This document shows positions 3,546 to 13,608 of a stretch of 20,193 bases of DNA, in pieces. Source of the DNA: a virus; IMG/VR virus record IMGVR_UViG_3300035701_000369, positions 1-20,193 of that record; one strand, 5' to 3'. The notes below the pieces were generated by a model. That model was not told the DNA's origin and ran no database searches. It saw only the letters and a list, made by a program, of their open reading frames with translations. The translations under genes and the position numbers were made by a program. The stretch's first letter is position 1, and each line of letters starts with the position of its first letter.

Positions 3546-4025
3546 ATGAAAAAATTATTAATTTTAATGGCTTTCGTAGCCATAACAATTTCGGGATTTT
3601 CGCAAAGTGCGTGGGATGGATTTCTTCGTCCTGTTACCCATCAACAATTTGAAAACCGTTTGGCAGCGAATCCTTTGAAAGCGGTTGCAACAGGTTCATC
3701 AGTATGGTTATTTAGGCCGGCAATTGAAATTTCTGCAACTCAATTAGTTTATGATAGAACAACAAAGGATTGGGCATCTTCGTCATTTACATCAGCAGGA
3801 GTAGGGCTTGGTTATCAACATTATGTTGACAATAATGGTACTCCATATAATAATTATGGATTTAATTTATTGATATTATTTACTGCCATACCAACAGAAA
3901 CGTCTCCCGCTTCAGTATCTTTTGCAGGAACATTTAGTGCTTTAAAGTTTATAGATATTGGAGGTGGATATAATGCCACAACAAAAAATCCTTTTGTTCT
4001 TTTAGGAATATCATACAATTTCTAG
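3546..4025 (+). CDS. Predicted small outer-membrane beta-barrel protein
   Basis: A 159-residue secreted protein. Residues 1-20 (MKKLLILMAFVAITISGFSQ) are a textbook Sec signal peptide with a Bacteroidota-style end, probably cut before S21. The mature part is rich in alternating aromatic/hydrophobic strands and Gly turns (GVGLGYQHYVDNNG, FIDIGGGYNAT) and ends FVLLGISYNF. A C-terminal aromatic residue is the usual recognition signal for outer-membrane barrel assembly. At this length, six to eight strands are plausible. No lipoprotein cysteine or enzyme motif is seen. It lies between the recombinase and nuclease genes, although it has no obvious replication role. It may be a moron that modifies the infected cell surface, for example to block superinfection. 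A virion role cannot be excluded, and the function is not known. Confidence 0.7.
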   Translation: MKKLLILMAFVAITISGFSQSAWDGFLRPVTHQQFENRLAANPLKAVATGSSVWLFRPAIEISATQLVYDRTTKDWASSSFTSAGVGLGYQHYVDNNGTPYNNYGFNLLILFTAIPTETSPASVSFAGTFSALKFIDIGGGYNATTKNPFVLLGISYNF

Positions 4026-5529: not shown

Positions 5530-7218
5530 ATGAATGATAAAAATTTTGGTTATTTAGGAACAGGATTTCAACAGCAACTACTTAAAACACTCATTGAAGA
5601 TAAGAAATTTTCAATAATAATAATAGATTCTATAGATAGTAAGTATTTTGATGGGCCCTACTTCAAATATCTTATGGAGAATATCAAGGAGTTGTATACC
5701 TCCTATGGCGTAATTCCTGATTATACAACACTTGAGCAGAAGATAATGAAAGAAAACAGGGATATTTCCAGTAAGGTGCATATCGATACTTTACACACAA
5801 TTAGAGACCTTGATCTCCCAAATGCTGGGTTTGTCAAGGAAACATCATTAAATTTCTGTAAACAGCAGGTTTTGAAAAAATCCCTGAAGGAAGTTGAAGA
5901 GATTATGAATAATGGCGATTTTGAAGAATATCATAAAATTGAAGAAATTGTTCAAAAAGCGTTACTAGTAGGTTCAACAACCGATTCTGTAATAGATATA
6001 TTCGAAAATGTTCGAGAATCACTGGAAGACGATAATAGAGTTCCATTTCCAACAGGAGTTGTGGGAATCGATAATCTTCTTAAAGGCGGGCTTGCTAGAT
6101 GTGAAGTTGGTTTATTTATCGCCCCGTTAGGAGTGGGAAAGACCACCTGGCTTACTAAAGTGGCTAATACGGCATATAATGTCGGTGGAAATGTTTTACA
6201 TATATTCTTTGAGGATAATGAAAACGATATTCGAAGGAAACATTATACATGCTGGACAAAATATTCAGATACAGAACAAAGAGATCATAAAGATGAAGTG
6301 GTTCAAATTGTTGCAGAAAAAAGAACAACAAAAAATTTTCTTAAACTTGTAAAGCTGCCGCCAACCGGGGTTTCGGTTAATGATATAAGATCAATAATAA
6401 GAAAATTAGGATCAGAGGGGCAACATATTGATATGTTAATTATTGACTATATTGATTGTATTGCGAGTGAAAGATCCATCGATGGTGAAGAATGGAAAGG
6501 CGAAGGAGCAATTATGAGGAGTCTTGAAGCAATGAAAGATGAGTTTAATATTGCCATATGGGTAGCAACGCAAGGTAATCGTGAAAGTTTATCATCTGAA
6601 GTTGTAACAACCGACCAGATAGGCGGATCAATTAAGAAAGCACAAATTGGACATGTGGTAATATCAGCAGGTAAGACTCTTGAACAAAAAGAACAGAATT
6701 TAGCCACGATTACGTTACTTAAATCTCGTATCGGTAAAGACGGTGTGGTATTCACAAATTGTAAATTTAATAACGAATATCTTGATATTGATACAGATAC
6801 ACAAGTTACTCTTCTTGGTCATGAAGAAGAAGTAGCTGAAAGAAAGAGAGAAAGAGCATCTACTGTTTATAAAGCAGCGGCAGAGAAGGATGAGCGTAAA
6901 CTTGAAGCTCAGGTAGAAAAAATATTAGAATCAAAAATAATTAAAATTAATCAAGAACATGAAGTGGTTGATGAAATTGGAGCAATTGAACTTGTAGATG
7001 AGATTCTTGAGGAAAAATCTGAAGAATTAATTAAGGGAGATGATCCAGTGCCAGAAGGTACTCCGGAATGGACGGGATCAGATGATCTGAATGATGTGCC
7101 ATGGAAAGCATCTCTTGAGCCAGAATTAACACAAGAGGAAAAGGCTCGTCAAAGATTAAAAGAATTAGCCAACCAAAGAAAACATAAGGTTGAAGAAATG
7201 GAGGTAAATACTGGGTGA
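5530..7218 (+). CDS. DnaB/gp41-like replicative DNA helicase
   Basis: A 562-residue protein with the DnaB-family layout. The helical N-terminal domain is about residues 1-150. The RecA-like motor follows, opening with PTGVVGIDNLLKGGL. Walker A is APLGVGKTT (198-206). FFEDNENDIRRKHY holds the motif with the catalytic acid after Walker A. Walker B is IDMLIIDYIDCI (D306). WVATQGNRE carries the sensor Gln (Q348). TTDQIGGSIKKAQIGHVVI and TLLKSRIGKDG complete the C-terminal motifs, with R400 in the arginine-finger region. It should form a hexamer that unwinds DNA 5'-3' at the fork. T4 gp41 has about 475 residues; here a charged tail of about 130 residues, partly coiled coil (AERKRERASTVYKAAAEKDE), follows the motor. 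No primase is visible in the window, so this tail might be a docking arm. The gene belongs to the same compact cluster as the nuclease. Confidence 0.9.
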   Translation: MNDKNFGYLGTGFQQQLLKTLIEDKKFSIIIIDSIDSKYFDGPYFKYLMENIKELYTSYGVIPDYTTLEQKIMKENRDISSKVHIDTLHTIRDLDLPNAGFVKETSLNFCKQQVLKKSLKEVEEIMNNGDFEEYHKIEEIVQKALLVGSTTDSVIDIFENVRESLEDDNRVPFPTGVVGIDNLLKGGLARCEVGLFIAPLGVGKTTWLTKVANTAYNVGGNVLHIFFEDNENDIRRKHYTCWTKYSDTEQRDHKDEVVQIVAEKRTTKNFLKLVKLPPTGVSVNDIRSIIRKLGSEGQHIDMLIIDYIDCIASERSIDGEEWKGEGAIMRSLEAMKDEFNIAIWVATQGNRESLSSEVVTTDQIGGSIKKAQIGHVVISAGKTLEQKEQNLATITLLKSRIGKDGVVFTNCKFNNEYLDIDTDTQVTLLGHEEEVAERKRERASTVYKAAAEKDERKLEAQVEKILESKIIKINQEHEVVDEIGAIELVDEILEEKSEELIKGDDPVPEGTPEWTGSDDLNDVPWKASLEPELTQEEKARQRLKELANQRKHKVEEMEVNTG

Positions 7219-9861: not shown

Positions 9862-9894
9862 AATCGCAATGACGCTACTCATTGCGATTTTTTT
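9862..9894 (+). terminator. Strong intrinsic terminator after nrdJ
   Basis: AATCGCAATGA (9862-9872) pairs perfectly with TCATTGCGATT (9879-9889) around loop CGCTAC, and a run of seven T (9888-9894) follows. It lies 29 bases after the nrdJ stop and separates the replication module from the structural module. An ATG inside the left arm (9869) is in frame with the next gene but is not a credible start. Confidence 0.93.
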
Positions 9895-9903
9895 ATTTCA
9901 TTA

Positions 9904-9911
9904 TATTTATG
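9904..9911 (+). promoter_or_regulatory. Candidate promoter element before the baseplate module
   Basis: TATTTATG lies in the 34 bases between the terminator and the ATG at 9929. A new transcript must start near here if the terminator is efficient. The wider TATATTTATG resembles both the Bacteroidota -7 element and the TATTTATA boxes at 470-477 and 13649-13656. Confidence 0.35.
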
Positions 9912-9928
9912 AAATATGGTATCATTTT

Positions 9929-10609
9929 ATGAAAAAAAGAACATTAAACGAAGAAATCAATAGGATAAAAAAACTAAACGAGTTATTCGCCGACGATAAT
10001 GACGACTATCTATATGATCCTGAGTACTATGAGAAAAACATGGAAGATGATGAGGATGAGACTGATCCGCAGTATGATGAGAATGGTGAATTAATTGAAC
10101 CTTCTGATTTTAATGACGATTTAACATTAGGGCCTAGTGCCTCTTCGGATACATCAACAAAAATGACCGAACCTGAAATGATAGAAACGCCTAAAAATGG
10201 ACTTCAACACTATGATAAAAAGAAAACAGATCAATTACATGATATATTATTAAAGGGAGATTTAGAGAAAGATATGATCGATGAACCTGTTCTTCAATCT
10301 ATGATAAAAGATTTTCTTGTAAAACCAACAGCCGATTTTGGACATGATAGGAGGTTTGGTAAGGATAAAAGGCTTTTCGGATTTAATAAGGCCAAAAGAG
10401 GTAGGGACGAGATCAATCCAACTAAAGATTATGGATATGCTGATATAACACCAGCAAACAGATCAATAATTGAGGATAAAAATAAATTTCACATATATAT
10501 TAATAATTTAATTGATATCAATAATAAAAAATTAGATCTAAACCCCCATAAAGATAAGGTTAATGACATCGAAAATGAATTCAGAAATCGATGGGGGGGT
10601 TACAGATAA
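9929..10609 (+). CDS. Acidic probable virion protein
   Basis: A 226-residue protein. The frame extends back to an ATG at 9869, but that lies inside the terminator stem, so the ATG at 9929 (MKKRTLNEEINRIKKLNELF) is chosen; it also gives a typical amphipathic N-terminus. Residues about 20-60 are extremely acidic (DDNDDYLYDPEYYEKN, then EDDEDETD). The middle is Ser/Thr-rich and probably disordered. The C-terminal half is mixed charge (GHDRRFGKDKRLFGFNKAKR) and ends RNRWGGYR. No known domain is seen. It is the first gene of the structural module, 16 bases before gp25. The leader has L-N-E, resembling a T4 prohead-protease site, and may direct the protein into the capsid; that is inference. A run of seven G near the 3' end (10593-10599) is unusual for this AT-rich DNA. 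Confidence 0.7.
   Translation: MKKRTLNEEINRIKKLNELFADDNDDYLYDPEYYEKNMEDDEDETDPQYDENGELIEPSDFNDDLTLGPSASSDTSTKMTEPEMIETPKNGLQHYDKKKTDQLHDILLKGDLEKDMIDEPVLQSMIKDFLVKPTADFGHDRRFGKDKRLFGFNKAKRGRDEINPTKDYGYADITPANRSIIEDKNKFHIYINNLIDINNKKLDLNPHKDKVNDIENEFRNRWGGYR
10541..10601 (+). repeat. GC-rich inverted repeat at the end of the acidic-protein gene
   Basis: AACCCCCAT (10541-10549) can pair with ATGGGGGGGTT (10591-10601), leaving two bulged G and a loop of about 41 bases. It lies in the last 70 bases of the gene and ends 24 bases before the gp25 start, so an RNA hairpin here could affect the level of gp25. Pure C and G runs stand out in this AT-rich region. Confidence 0.4.
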
Positions 10610-10625
10610 ACATATTAAGAAATAG

Positions 10626-11075
10626 ATGGCAACATACGGTATAGATTATCCATTTAGAGATAGTCAAATTGGAAATTATGTTCAAATGACTTCCACTCCT
10701 GAAAGAGAAGTTAGAGCTGACCTTATACATTTGTTATTAACAAGAAAAGGTAGTAGATATTTTTTACCTGATTTTGGAACTAGATTATATGAATATATTT
10801 TTGAACAAAATGACGTGGTATCATTTAATCATATAGAGGACGAAATAAGAGAAGGGGTAAGAAAATATATACCGAATCTAGATATAAATTCTATAAAGAT
10901 TATGGCGGCTGAAGATGATCCAGAAACACCTCCTTCTCCTAAAGAAGAAGATGACGAAAGATTATTTAGAACGGCAGATAATGCTGCAAAACCATATACA
11001 GCAAGAGTTAAAATAGATTATACGGTTAATAATGGAACATTTTCAACATCAGATTTTATAATAATAAACATTTAA
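10626..11075 (+). CDS. gp25-like baseplate wedge protein (GPW/gp25 family)
   Basis: A 149-residue protein of the GPW/gp25 family, which joins the wedge to the tube/sheath starting point in contractile tails. The family signature is clear: GIDYPFRD at the N-terminus, then REVRADLIHLLLTRKGSRYF followed by LPDFGTRLYEYIFEQND (to residue 63), and a helix (IEDEIREGVRKYIPNL). T4 gp25 has 132 residues; the extra length is a Pro/acidic insertion at about 96-122 (EDDPETPPSPKEEDDERLF) before the final strands. No transmembrane segment or catalytic residues are seen; the old lysozyme label for this family is not supported by sequence. The stop codon shares its last A with the next ATG (TAATG), suggesting translational coupling to the kinase-like gene. 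Confidence 0.88.
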   Translation: MATYGIDYPFRDSQIGNYVQMTSTPEREVRADLIHLLLTRKGSRYFLPDFGTRLYEYIFEQNDVVSFNHIEDEIREGVRKYIPNLDINSIKIMAAEDDPETPPSPKEEDDERLFRTADNAAKPYTARVKIDYTVNNGTFSTSDFIIINI

Positions 11076-11764
11076 TGGGCAGAATAAAATTATATGATAT
11101 TATAACTGAATCAATTGAAAGAGATATGTTTGAAGGATTTGATGAAACCGAATTAACTGAGGATTATCCAGTTGATTTTGATATATTTAATTTTAAAAAC
11201 ATAAGAGGTTATGCTGCAAAATTAAGATATGCTGAGACATATTTAGGTAAACCGATTGGCAGGGGATCATCAAGAGTCGTATATCGTGTAGATACTGATA
11301 AAGTTTTAAAGCTTGCTAAAAATAAAAAAGGTATTGCTCAAAATGAAGTTGAAATAAATTGGTCTGGAGATAATTACTATGGTGATATTATGGCTCGTAT
11401 TTTTGATTATGATAGAGACGATAGTTTATGGGTAGAAATGGAATTAGCCTTCAGATCTAAAAAGTCGGATTTTAAAAGATTATGGGGAGTCGATCTCGAT
11501 AAAATGCATTATTATTTAAGAAATAGATATCAAGAGAATAATGGAAAGCCATCGTATTTTTCTATAGAACCAGAAATCAAAGAACAATTGGATAATAATG
11601 ATTATGTTCAACATCTTTTAGAGTTCGTGCTCGATTCCGATACCAATCCCGGCGATTTAGGAAGAGTAAGTTCATGGGGATTAGTAAAAAGAACGGGCGG
11701 AATGGCTTTAGTTTTAATAGATTACGGACTAACAAGCGATGTATATGAATCATATTATAGATAA
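11075..11764 (+). CDS. Protein-kinase-like protein, candidate packaged virion protein
   Basis: A 229-residue protein with features of a eukaryotic-like protein kinase fold. There is a glycine-rich loop (IGRGSSRVVYRV, 61-72), a lysine strand (KVLKLAKN, K79), a helix-C type Glu (QNEVEIN, E91 or E93), a hinge-like VEMELA (120-125), and VLIDYGLTSDVY, where D216-Y217-G218 would be the DFG motif. The catalytic loop is unusual: DSDTNPGDLGRVSSWG (187-202) stands where HRDxxxxN is expected, so D187 or D189 with N191 could act, or the protein may be inactive. Residues 1-18 (GRIKLYDIITESIERDM) resemble the T4 capsid-targeting peptide MKTYQEFIAEA, including an I-T-E cleavage-like site. It lies between gp25 and gp6, overlapping gp25 by one base. 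A kinase-fold phosphotransferase for small molecules is an alternative. Confidence 0.55.
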   Translation: MGRIKLYDIITESIERDMFEGFDETELTEDYPVDFDIFNFKNIRGYAAKLRYAETYLGKPIGRGSSRVVYRVDTDKVLKLAKNKKGIAQNEVEINWSGDNYYGDIMARIFDYDRDDSLWVEMELAFRSKKSDFKRLWGVDLDKMHYYLRNRYQENNGKPSYFSIEPEIKEQLDNNDYVQHLLEFVLDSDTNPGDLGRVSSWGLVKRTGGMALVLIDYGLTSDVYESYYR

Positions 11765-11775
11765 TAAATAAAAAA

Positions 11776-13608
11776 ATGGGAAAACAAATTTCATACGCAC
11801 AAAGGGATTTTGCAAGTCTTAGAGATGACTTGGTTAAATTGACACAGCAATATTATCCCGATCTGATCTCAAATTTTAACGATGCGTCAATATATTCGGT
11901 TTTATTGGATTTAAACGCGGCAGTAGCCGATAACTTACATTTCCATATTGATAGAGTATGGCAAGAAACAATGTTGGACTTTGCTCAACAAAGACAATCA
12001 TTATTTTTTATTGCTAAAACATACGGTATCAAATTACCAGGTCTTAGGCCATCTGTTGCTTTATGTGATTTTAGTATAAATGTTCCGGTTAATGGGGATA
12101 AAGATGATGAAAGATACGAAGGAATATTAAAAGCAGGATCTCAAGTTTCGGGCGGTGGACAGGTTTTTGAAATTCTTGAAGATGTGGATTTTTCAAGTCC
12201 TTTTAATAGTAAAGGAGAATCTAATAGATTAAAGATACCAAACTTTAATACTAATAAAAAACTAGTATCCTATACAATAACAAAAAGAGAAGCTGTTGTT
12301 AATGGAGTTACAAGAATATATCGAAAAGTTATTACAGATGTAGACCAAAAGCCATTTTTAAAAGTATATCTTCCAGAAAAGAATGTTTTAGGAGTTACAG
12401 CAGTTATACATAAAGATGGCACGAGTTATGGAGCAAATCCAACATCAGATGAATTTATGTCTTCACCAAATAAATGGTATGAAGTTAAATCATTAATCGA
12501 AGATAAAGTTTTTATTCAAAATCCGACGGCAGCATCTGATAGTGATAATTTTAAAGCCGGCGATTATGTTAAGGTTGATAATAAGTTTTGTACAGAATAT
12601 ATGCCTGAAGGATATTTCTTATTAACTTTTGGTTCTGGCAATGTTGATCCGATGGATAATTTGGATAACTATATGAATGGAACAATGAAAGTTAATATTG
12701 CAACATTCTTAAATAATATGTCATTAGGGGCAATTCCAAAATCAAACACAACATTATTTGTCAAATATAGAATTGGTGGTGGTAAAGATACAAATATTGG
12801 GATTAATGTTATAACAACCATGGATTCATATGATTTTGCAATAAACGGCCCAAATGCGTCGATAAATAGTCAAGTGAATCAGTCAATGAGGGTGACAAAC
12901 GTTACGCCGGCAATTGGCGGATCTGATGCTCCAACAATTGAAGAAATAAGAAATATGATAGCATATAATTTTGCTGCGCAAAATAGAGCTGTAACATTAA
13001 ATGATTATAAATCATTAATCGAAACAATGCCATCAACTTATGGAGCTCCAGCGAAAGTTAATGTAATGGAAGAAGACAATAAAGTTAGAGTTAAATTATT
13101 ATCATATGATGAAAATGGTAATTTAATCGACACTGTTTCAACCACATTAAAAGATAATGTTTTAAATTATTTAGCCAATTACAGAATGTTAAATGATTAT
13201 ATAGATATACAAAGTGGCGAAGTAATAGATATGTCATTAGAAATTGATTTGGTGGTTAATAAAAATGAAAATTCAACTGATATTATAAAATCTGCCATTA
13301 ATCAAGTAATATCATTTTTTGACGTTGCCAAAAGAAAAATGGGTGATCCATTGTTGGTTGGTGATTTAAAAAGAGAAATAGGTAACGTTGCTGGAGTTGT
13401 AAATGTTGTGGATATTAGAGTATTCAATAAAATAGGTGGAAATTATTCATCATCACAGGTTGCTCAATCATATGTAGACAATGCAACCAAAGAAATTTTA
13501 CAATCTGATAGCACCATCTATATGAAATCGAATCAAATATTTCAAATTAGATTTCCATCCTTAGATATAAAAATAAGAACGAAAAATCTCTCTTCTACTA
13601 CATATTAA
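11776..13608 (+). CDS. gp6-like baseplate wedge protein (baseplate J family)
   Basis: A 610-residue protein matching the gp6/baseplate-J group; T4 gp6 has 660 residues. The N-terminus has the typical DFASLRDDLVKLTQQYYPDL and DASIYSVLLDLNAAVADNL, then LHFHIDRVWQETMLDFAQQR and AKTYGIKLPGLRPSVA, which form the helical core that clamps neighbouring wedges. The C-terminal third has AQNRAVTLNDYKSLI (about residues 400-415) and a late segment MGDPLLVGDLKREIGNVAGV, both family landmarks. The central part (about 100-385) is beta-rich. No signal peptide or membrane segment is seen. It should form the dimeric ring holding six wedges together around the hub. The A-rich leader (ataaataaaaaa) precedes an ATG 11 bases after the kinase-like gene, so transcription is probably shared with gp25. 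Confidence 0.88.
   Translation: MGKQISYAQRDFASLRDDLVKLTQQYYPDLISNFNDASIYSVLLDLNAAVADNLHFHIDRVWQETMLDFAQQRQSLFFIAKTYGIKLPGLRPSVALCDFSINVPVNGDKDDERYEGILKAGSQVSGGGQVFEILEDVDFSSPFNSKGESNRLKIPNFNTNKKLVSYTITKREAVVNGVTRIYRKVITDVDQKPFLKVYLPEKNVLGVTAVIHKDGTSYGANPTSDEFMSSPNKWYEVKSLIEDKVFIQNPTAASDSDNFKAGDYVKVDNKFCTEYMPEGYFLLTFGSGNVDPMDNLDNYMNGTMKVNIATFLNNMSLGAIPKSNTTLFVKYRIGGGKDTNIGINVITTMDSYDFAINGPNASINSQVNQSMRVTNVTPAIGGSDAPTIEEIRNMIAYNFAAQNRAVTLNDYKSLIETMPSTYGAPAKVNVMEEDNKVRVKLLSYDENGNLIDTVSTTLKDNVLNYLANYRMLNDYIDIQSGEVIDMSLEIDLVVNKNENSTDIIKSAINQVISFFDVAKRKMGDPLLVGDLKREIGNVAGVVNVVDIRVFNKIGGNYSSSQVAQSYVDNATKEILQSDSTIYMKSNQIFQIRFPSLDIKIRTKNLSSTTY

Follow-up and report, generated by a model that had tools for sequence, protein, structure and literature searches.

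Phage proteins with features of the locus described here fall into two known groups. In T4, the internal proteins and Alt carry N-terminal propeptides of 10–20 residues, which direct these proteins to the core of the prohead and are cut by the gp21 protease after L/I-x-E (PMC9026906, PMC9958956, PMC5694885). Separately, phage kinase domains without a C-lobe have been described as the Kinase-PolyVal family (PF18762), found stand-alone or within polyvalent proteins, mainly in Bacteroidetes and Verrucomicrobia/Chlamydia, and thought to modify host proteins, while T7 gp0.7 is a phage protein kinase that acts on host proteins (PMC5512222). Minimal phage kinases and T4-type injected head proteins are therefore both already known, and the combination reported here is probably a new and widespread variant: our preferred reading, at a probability of about 0.62, is an Alt-like, head-packaged, injected and C-lobe-truncated minimal kinase carried as an accessory gene.

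Genomic setting of the kinase-like gene

The gene is a 229-aa ORF with an ATG start at exactly positions 11075–11764 (+ strand) of the window, by which we mean the whole 20,193-nt stretch of DNA analysed. Upstream lies a gp25-type baseplate wedge gene (10626–11075, +; PF04965, E = 1e-12), whose stop is overlapped by the start of the kinase ORF, and a gp6-type baseplate wedge gene (11776–13608, +; phrog_6, E = 9e-20; PF04865, baseplate J) begins 11 bp past the kinase stop, which confirms the placement between gp25 and gp6 that an earlier note had read from the sequence. The same note remarked that T4 has no gene at this position; the comparison tells little because gp25 and gp6 are, as we take it, not adjacent in T4, and the phage's own lineage, in which an empty site is common, is the better reference.

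Among 80 relatives found through gp6 (74–94% identity), gp25 directly abuts gp6 in 72, mostly with a gap of 4 bp, 6 have the kinase gene, whole or cut by the contig end, and 2 are too short; the gene is absent even beside a 90% identical gp6. Close relatives of the kinase (60–86% identity) occupy the same site in other contigs. The gene is a removable accessory insertion in a late baseplate operon. T4 late-promoter octamers near it occur below chance level. A search of the GenBank phage collection found no near-identical phage; the nearest cultured relatives of this large T4-like phage infect Flavobacterium, and a Bacteroidota host is suggested by a single comparison, in which gp6 is 27% identical to that of Flavobacterium phage immuto.

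Two other ORFs of the window deserve mention. Positions 9869–10609, beside gp25, encode an acidic 246-aa protein whose start is probably at 9929 (MKKRTLNEEINRIKKLNEL); given its absence from the relative L002, it appears to be another accessory ORF. Positions 3546–4025, flanked by UvsX/RecA-like and exonuclease-like genes, encode a 159-aa protein that appears to have a signal peptide (MKKLLILMAFVAITISGFSQ) and has no family match in Pfam or PHROG.

A family of minimal kinase-like proteins and their predicted active site

Across Pfam, PHROG and NCBIfam the window protein belongs to no named family, and its single strong PHROG match is phrog_4301 (E = 4.3e-15), annotated as function unknown, a profile that all 60 aligned relatives match as well. 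PHROG 4301 members occur on roughly 100 viral contigs, often those of jumbo phages, and a profile search returned 97 related stretches, many lying on contigs 200–370 kb long. Cultured carriers are distant (~27–30% identity) and comprise the Alishewanella phages Slickus01 and Slicko01, Xanthomonas phage XacN1 and Rhodothermus phage RM378; RaK2-like phages have weaker homologues, including the copy in Klebsiella phage K64-1 (gp473), which is annotated 'protein kinase' and matches PF00069 at E = 7e-5. All of these belong to the same sequence family as the window protein, but the K64-1 homologue differs in lacking the N-terminal tag of the window members and in retaining a canonical D-x4-N loop, alone among the members read, where the window protein has GD194L...S200. 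Clearly homologous stand-alone proteins of 154 aa (hhalign E = 3e-34) are encoded in clostridial chromosomes, where they are rare (3 of the 200 genomes of one family sample, counting that of the query); such kinase-like genes, seen in L194, L196, L197 and others, have no Pfam or NCBIfam family name.

An AlphaFold model of the window protein, built from the alignment of 60 relatives, has a mean pLDDT of 83, with values of at least 90 over most of the domain; a second alignment was rebuilt without proteins from annotated records. Foldseek matched the model to ULK1 (1e-4) and APH(2'')-IVa (1e-3), and also to MPS1, BRAF, CDK2 and methylthioribose kinase, and VIA-align gave Z scores of up to 7.7 over 128 residues, in what the tool calls its 'middling' range. 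Most of the doubt left by that score is removed by the clostridial 154-aa homologue, whose model has a pLDDT of 94 and 213 structure matches at E < 0.001, led by CDKL1 (Z = 10.2 over 120 of 154 residues) and followed by PRPK, Rio2 (RIO) and APH; SAICAR synthase is also among the fold matches. The kinase fold proposed in the earlier note is thus supported by structure prediction and fold search, with K79 and D216 at kinase positions, and on these models the protein almost certainly has a protein-kinase fold.

The kinase-like domain covers residues 33–229 (11171–11761, +). The elements of the PKL fold, namely Gly-rich loop, strand-3 Lys, helix-C Glu, loop Asp and DFG-type Asp, are found in order. 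The chain ends 11 residues past the DYG (G218), so the activation segment and helices F–I are missing; of the Hanks-type features, the HRD...N catalytic loop, the activation segment, APE and helices F–I are all lacking. Neither this early end nor the N-terminal tag was mentioned in the earlier note.

Invariant in 60 of 60 relatives are G64, R67, K79, A81, G86, A88-Q89-N90-E91, E93, D194, G202, D216 and G218, of which A88, Q89, N90 and E93 are also kept in the clostridial relatives. They include the glycine-rich loop G62-R-G64-S-S-R67 (11258–11275, +), the strand-3 ATP-binding lysine K79 (11309–11311, +) and the metal-binding, DFG-equivalent D216-Y-G218 (11720–11728, +), so that these three predicted motifs hold. 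In a structural alignment to MPS1, residues 219 and 220 pair with 667 and 668, and 216 accordingly with 664, which we take to be the DFG Asp. A helix-C Glu is likewise present, with its assignment corrected to E93 within the signature A88-Q-N-E-V-E93 at the start of helix C (11336–11353, +). The hinge proposed as VEMELA fared less well: E121 is found in only 31 of 60 members, while E123 is kept in 56. HRD is indeed absent, as had been noted, the loop reading G-D-L-x-R-x-[SNA]-[STN]-[WY]-G with S/T/N at the position of the Mg-binding Asn, but the Asp that opens the proposed replacement DSDTNPGDLG is probably not the catalytic one.

That role most likely falls to D194 (11654–11656, +), which we take as the HRD/HGD Asp because it is invariant in 60 of 60 and because the spacing in the compact members equals that of D166–D184 in PKA; D194 and D216 are separated by 18–19 residues in 16 compact members and by 22 in 44, and S/T/N200 directly precedes the strand before D216. 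D189, suggested by a first alignment of nine sequences, was rejected, being Asp in only 15 of 60. The kinase gene evolves faster than gp6, with a dN/dS of 0.08–0.26 indicating purifying selection, and this value together with the invariance across 60 relatives argues that the kinase motifs are not chance. The family can be summarized by the signature GxGSxR, K, AQNExE, D-x5-[STN]-[WY]-G and DxG, and we consider it quite likely that its members are catalytically active. An unannotated PHROG thereby becomes a defined enzyme family.

Kinase-PolyVal and the window family have both lost the C-terminal subdomain but differ in signature, AQNExE and D...[WY]G in the window family against GAEQKVY and EDLHDENVL...IDT in Kinase-PolyVal, and where Kinase-PolyVal has a Gln in the last N-lobe strand, position 123 of the window family is E in 56 of 60 and Q in 2. 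Membership in Kinase-PolyVal was rejected: none of the 60 members matched PF18762 at E ≤ 0.1, and hhalign gave a probability of 1.2%. No sequence similarity was found between the window family and T7 gp0.7, a kinase made after infection and not known to be packaged. The sequence profile also matches the effector kinase SteC (E = 7e-4 and 4e-6), in the N-lobe only, and NleH at E = 0.046. The bacterial effectors SteC, NleH/OspG and HopBF1 resemble the window protein as predicted here: they too are small kinases of an atypical kind, and they too are delivered into a target cell. The SteC N-lobe resembles the family by profile, but the similarity extends over only ~55 residues and these effectors use another delivery system and other target cells.

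The N-terminal tag and its company

Ahead of the folded domain, the window protein begins with a capsid-targeting-like propeptide, MGRIKLYDIITE (residues 1–12; 11075–11110, +), which [L/I]-x-E statistics and conservation predict to be cut by a prohead protease at ITE12|S13. A second possible site, L27-T28-E29|D30 (11153–11161, +), lies immediately ahead of D/E-Y-P, with which the folded domain conservedly begins, and its L-x-E is found in all clade members. At the first site, hydrophobic-x-E|[S/A] is kept in 7 of 7 clade members with a full N-terminus. Family-wide, [L/I]-x-E occurs in 34 of 34 stand-alone N-termini, against 18.4 (s.d. 2.7) when shuffled and 8.7 (s.d. 2.5, maximum 17) in matched background ORFs, a figure inflated by relatedness, although the sequences flanking the motif differ widely. 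Residues 1–32 are predicted to be disordered, with a pLDDT of 37 over residues 1–20, and yet they are strongly constrained: pN over residues 1–32 versus the domain was 0.057 versus 0.229 (against L002), 0.088 versus 0.247 and 0.090 versus 0.213, the exception being L001, where the N-terminus was not lower (0.069 versus 0.065). The RaK2 and K64-1 homologues have no obvious N-terminal tag.

A short propeptide-like N-terminus with [L/I]-x-E, as in T4-type internal head proteins, is found here too, and like Alt and IPI–III the window protein would be nonessential, variable and lineage-specific cargo with a 10–20-residue propeptide ending in [L/I]-x-E. The cargo itself differs, being an ADP-ribosyltransferase (Alt) or a small anti-restriction protein in T4 and a kinase fold, with packaging predicted, in the window.

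In two other phages the kinase shares its own N-terminal tag with unrelated proteins. The Slickus01 kinase has MKIDxLYxSLLE in common with six other ORFs (0.00 expected) and closes an ORF cassette (L008, 10–5975) annotated as hypothetical throughout, one member of which is ART-PolyVal (E = 4e-11) and others of which carry FHAT/YHST motifs like those of ADP-ribosyltransferases. Eight ORFs of unrelated content in a 259-kb contig start with MR[AV]xEF (control, 0), a tag that elsewhere precedes a GNAT–kinase fusion. Within the window's lineage, similar N-termini were modestly enriched, two contigs each having 4 at a score of ≥30 against an expected 1.2; among the window's own short relatives, whose contigs are short, tag sharing did not rise above background. 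An 'ITExQ'-type N-terminus that recurs in a further contig was set aside as weak, only 2–4 proteins having it. Every kinase-bearing phage record covered by both searches, 16 of 16, encodes a gp21-type protease (PF03420), as do three long contigs from the window's lineage; the protease was not found in the 20-kb window or the short nearest contigs, all of which lack head genes.

Elsewhere in the window, positions 700–1374 encode a Pro-rich 224-aa protein with an N-terminus ending LISE|QEPPLP, its relatives ending ITE| or LNE|; this protein is possibly a further substrate of the prohead protease.

Predicted packaging, alternatives and variant architectures

We propose that the kinase is made late, that its N-terminus would direct it into the prohead core and that a gp21-type protease would cut after ITE12, LTE29 or both. 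The mature kinase would then be packed beside the genome and enter the host with the DNA, where, ahead of phage gene expression, it would phosphorylate at least one host protein with ATP as the phosphate donor. Making a host-directed enzyme only late in infection is reasonable if the virion carries it, which is the logic of T4 Alt, an enzyme that ADP-ribosylates RNA polymerase. From the sequence evidence, packaging and injection are likely, and a host protein is somewhat favoured as the substrate. The earlier suggestion of Alt-like injection has in this way moved from a guess to a well-supported prediction, on the strength of N-termini that resemble capsid-targeting sequences, of tags in common with cargo like ADP-ribosyltransferases, and of genes for gp21-type proteases. 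Its company of ADP-ribosyltransferases, GNATs and nucleotidyltransferases suggests that the kinase may help in taking over the host or in countering its defences.

An active minimal kinase could instead stay unpackaged; expressed late alongside the baseplate genes, it would act in the already infected cell on host or phage proteins. We consider this unlikely: it would suit the position in a late structural operon, the overlap with gp25 and the RaK2/K64-1 homologues without a clear tag, and the N-terminal helix might serve as a site of interaction, but the protease motif is present in every stand-alone member examined, the disordered N-terminus is strongly constrained, and in two unrelated phages the tag is common to the kinase and other cargo. 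Far less plausible is a structural part in the baseplate or tail, or the phosphorylation of virion parts that the earlier note had also offered. Location between gp25 and gp6 is what speaks for such a role; against it, the 72 of 80 relatives in which gp25 abuts gp6 manage without the gene, which is therefore dispensable for the baseplate, most relatives with a 74–90% identical gp6 lack it, and homologues in other phages sit outside the baseplate operon.

Packaging might also be right and the chemistry wrong, the protein transferring AMP or another nucleotide, for example, or only binding ATP as a pseudokinase. The absence of HRD, with the loop G-D-L-x-R-x-[SNA]-[STN]-[WY]-G in its place, the lack of an activation segment and substrate-binding C-lobe helices, and the SAICAR synthase fold match would fit this reading, which we hold improbable nonetheless: the ATP- and metal-binding residues and the invariant loop Asp persist in 60 of 60 and in clostridial relatives, phage polyvalent proteins are reported to include minimal kinases without a C-lobe (PMC5512222), and one minimal and atypical kinase, HopBF1, is active (PMC9950578).

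If the packaged, injected kinase is correct, this would be the first protein kinase family shown to be injected by phage virions. Phage-injected enzymes act ahead of any phage gene expression, and apart from T4 Alt, IPI, P1 Dar and virion RNA polymerases few examples are known. The main texts of the published CBB, RaK2, phAPEC6 and XacN1 virion proteomes name no PHROG 4301 protein kinase, and a literature search of incomplete coverage turned up no phage protein kinase described as injected from the virion. The window protein is thus a testable candidate for a virion-borne kinase, and the tag with [L/I]-x-E offers a simple search rule for injected cargo in uncultured jumbo phages. More tentatively, and at somewhat less than even odds, jumbo T4-like phages may use a short, interchangeable N-terminal capsid tag to load changing host-directed enzymes, with minimal kinases of this previously undefined family, marked by its own catalytic signature, among the commonest cargoes.

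The kinase domain also occurs in larger proteins. In L078 (5962–11061) it is the first domain of a polyvalent protein; the rest includes two further segments that look like kinases, a nucleotidyltransferase of the poly(A)-polymerase/CCA type (PF01743, E = 2e-22) and a region that weakly matches 2H-phosphodiesterase. Similar polyvalent proteins are found in L033, L034, L036, L042, L044, L053, L057, L060, L063 and L188, and the lengths, that of L078 included, span 1,160–1,810 aa. Two or three tandem kinase domains are encoded in L087 (6001–8118), L076 (6001–7275) and G021 (113064–114323). In the 368- and 274-kb jumbo contigs L019 and L020, the kinase frame contains one in-frame TAG at about 6100–6105, at a Lys/Gln/Thr column, which would fit the decoding of TAG as Gln.
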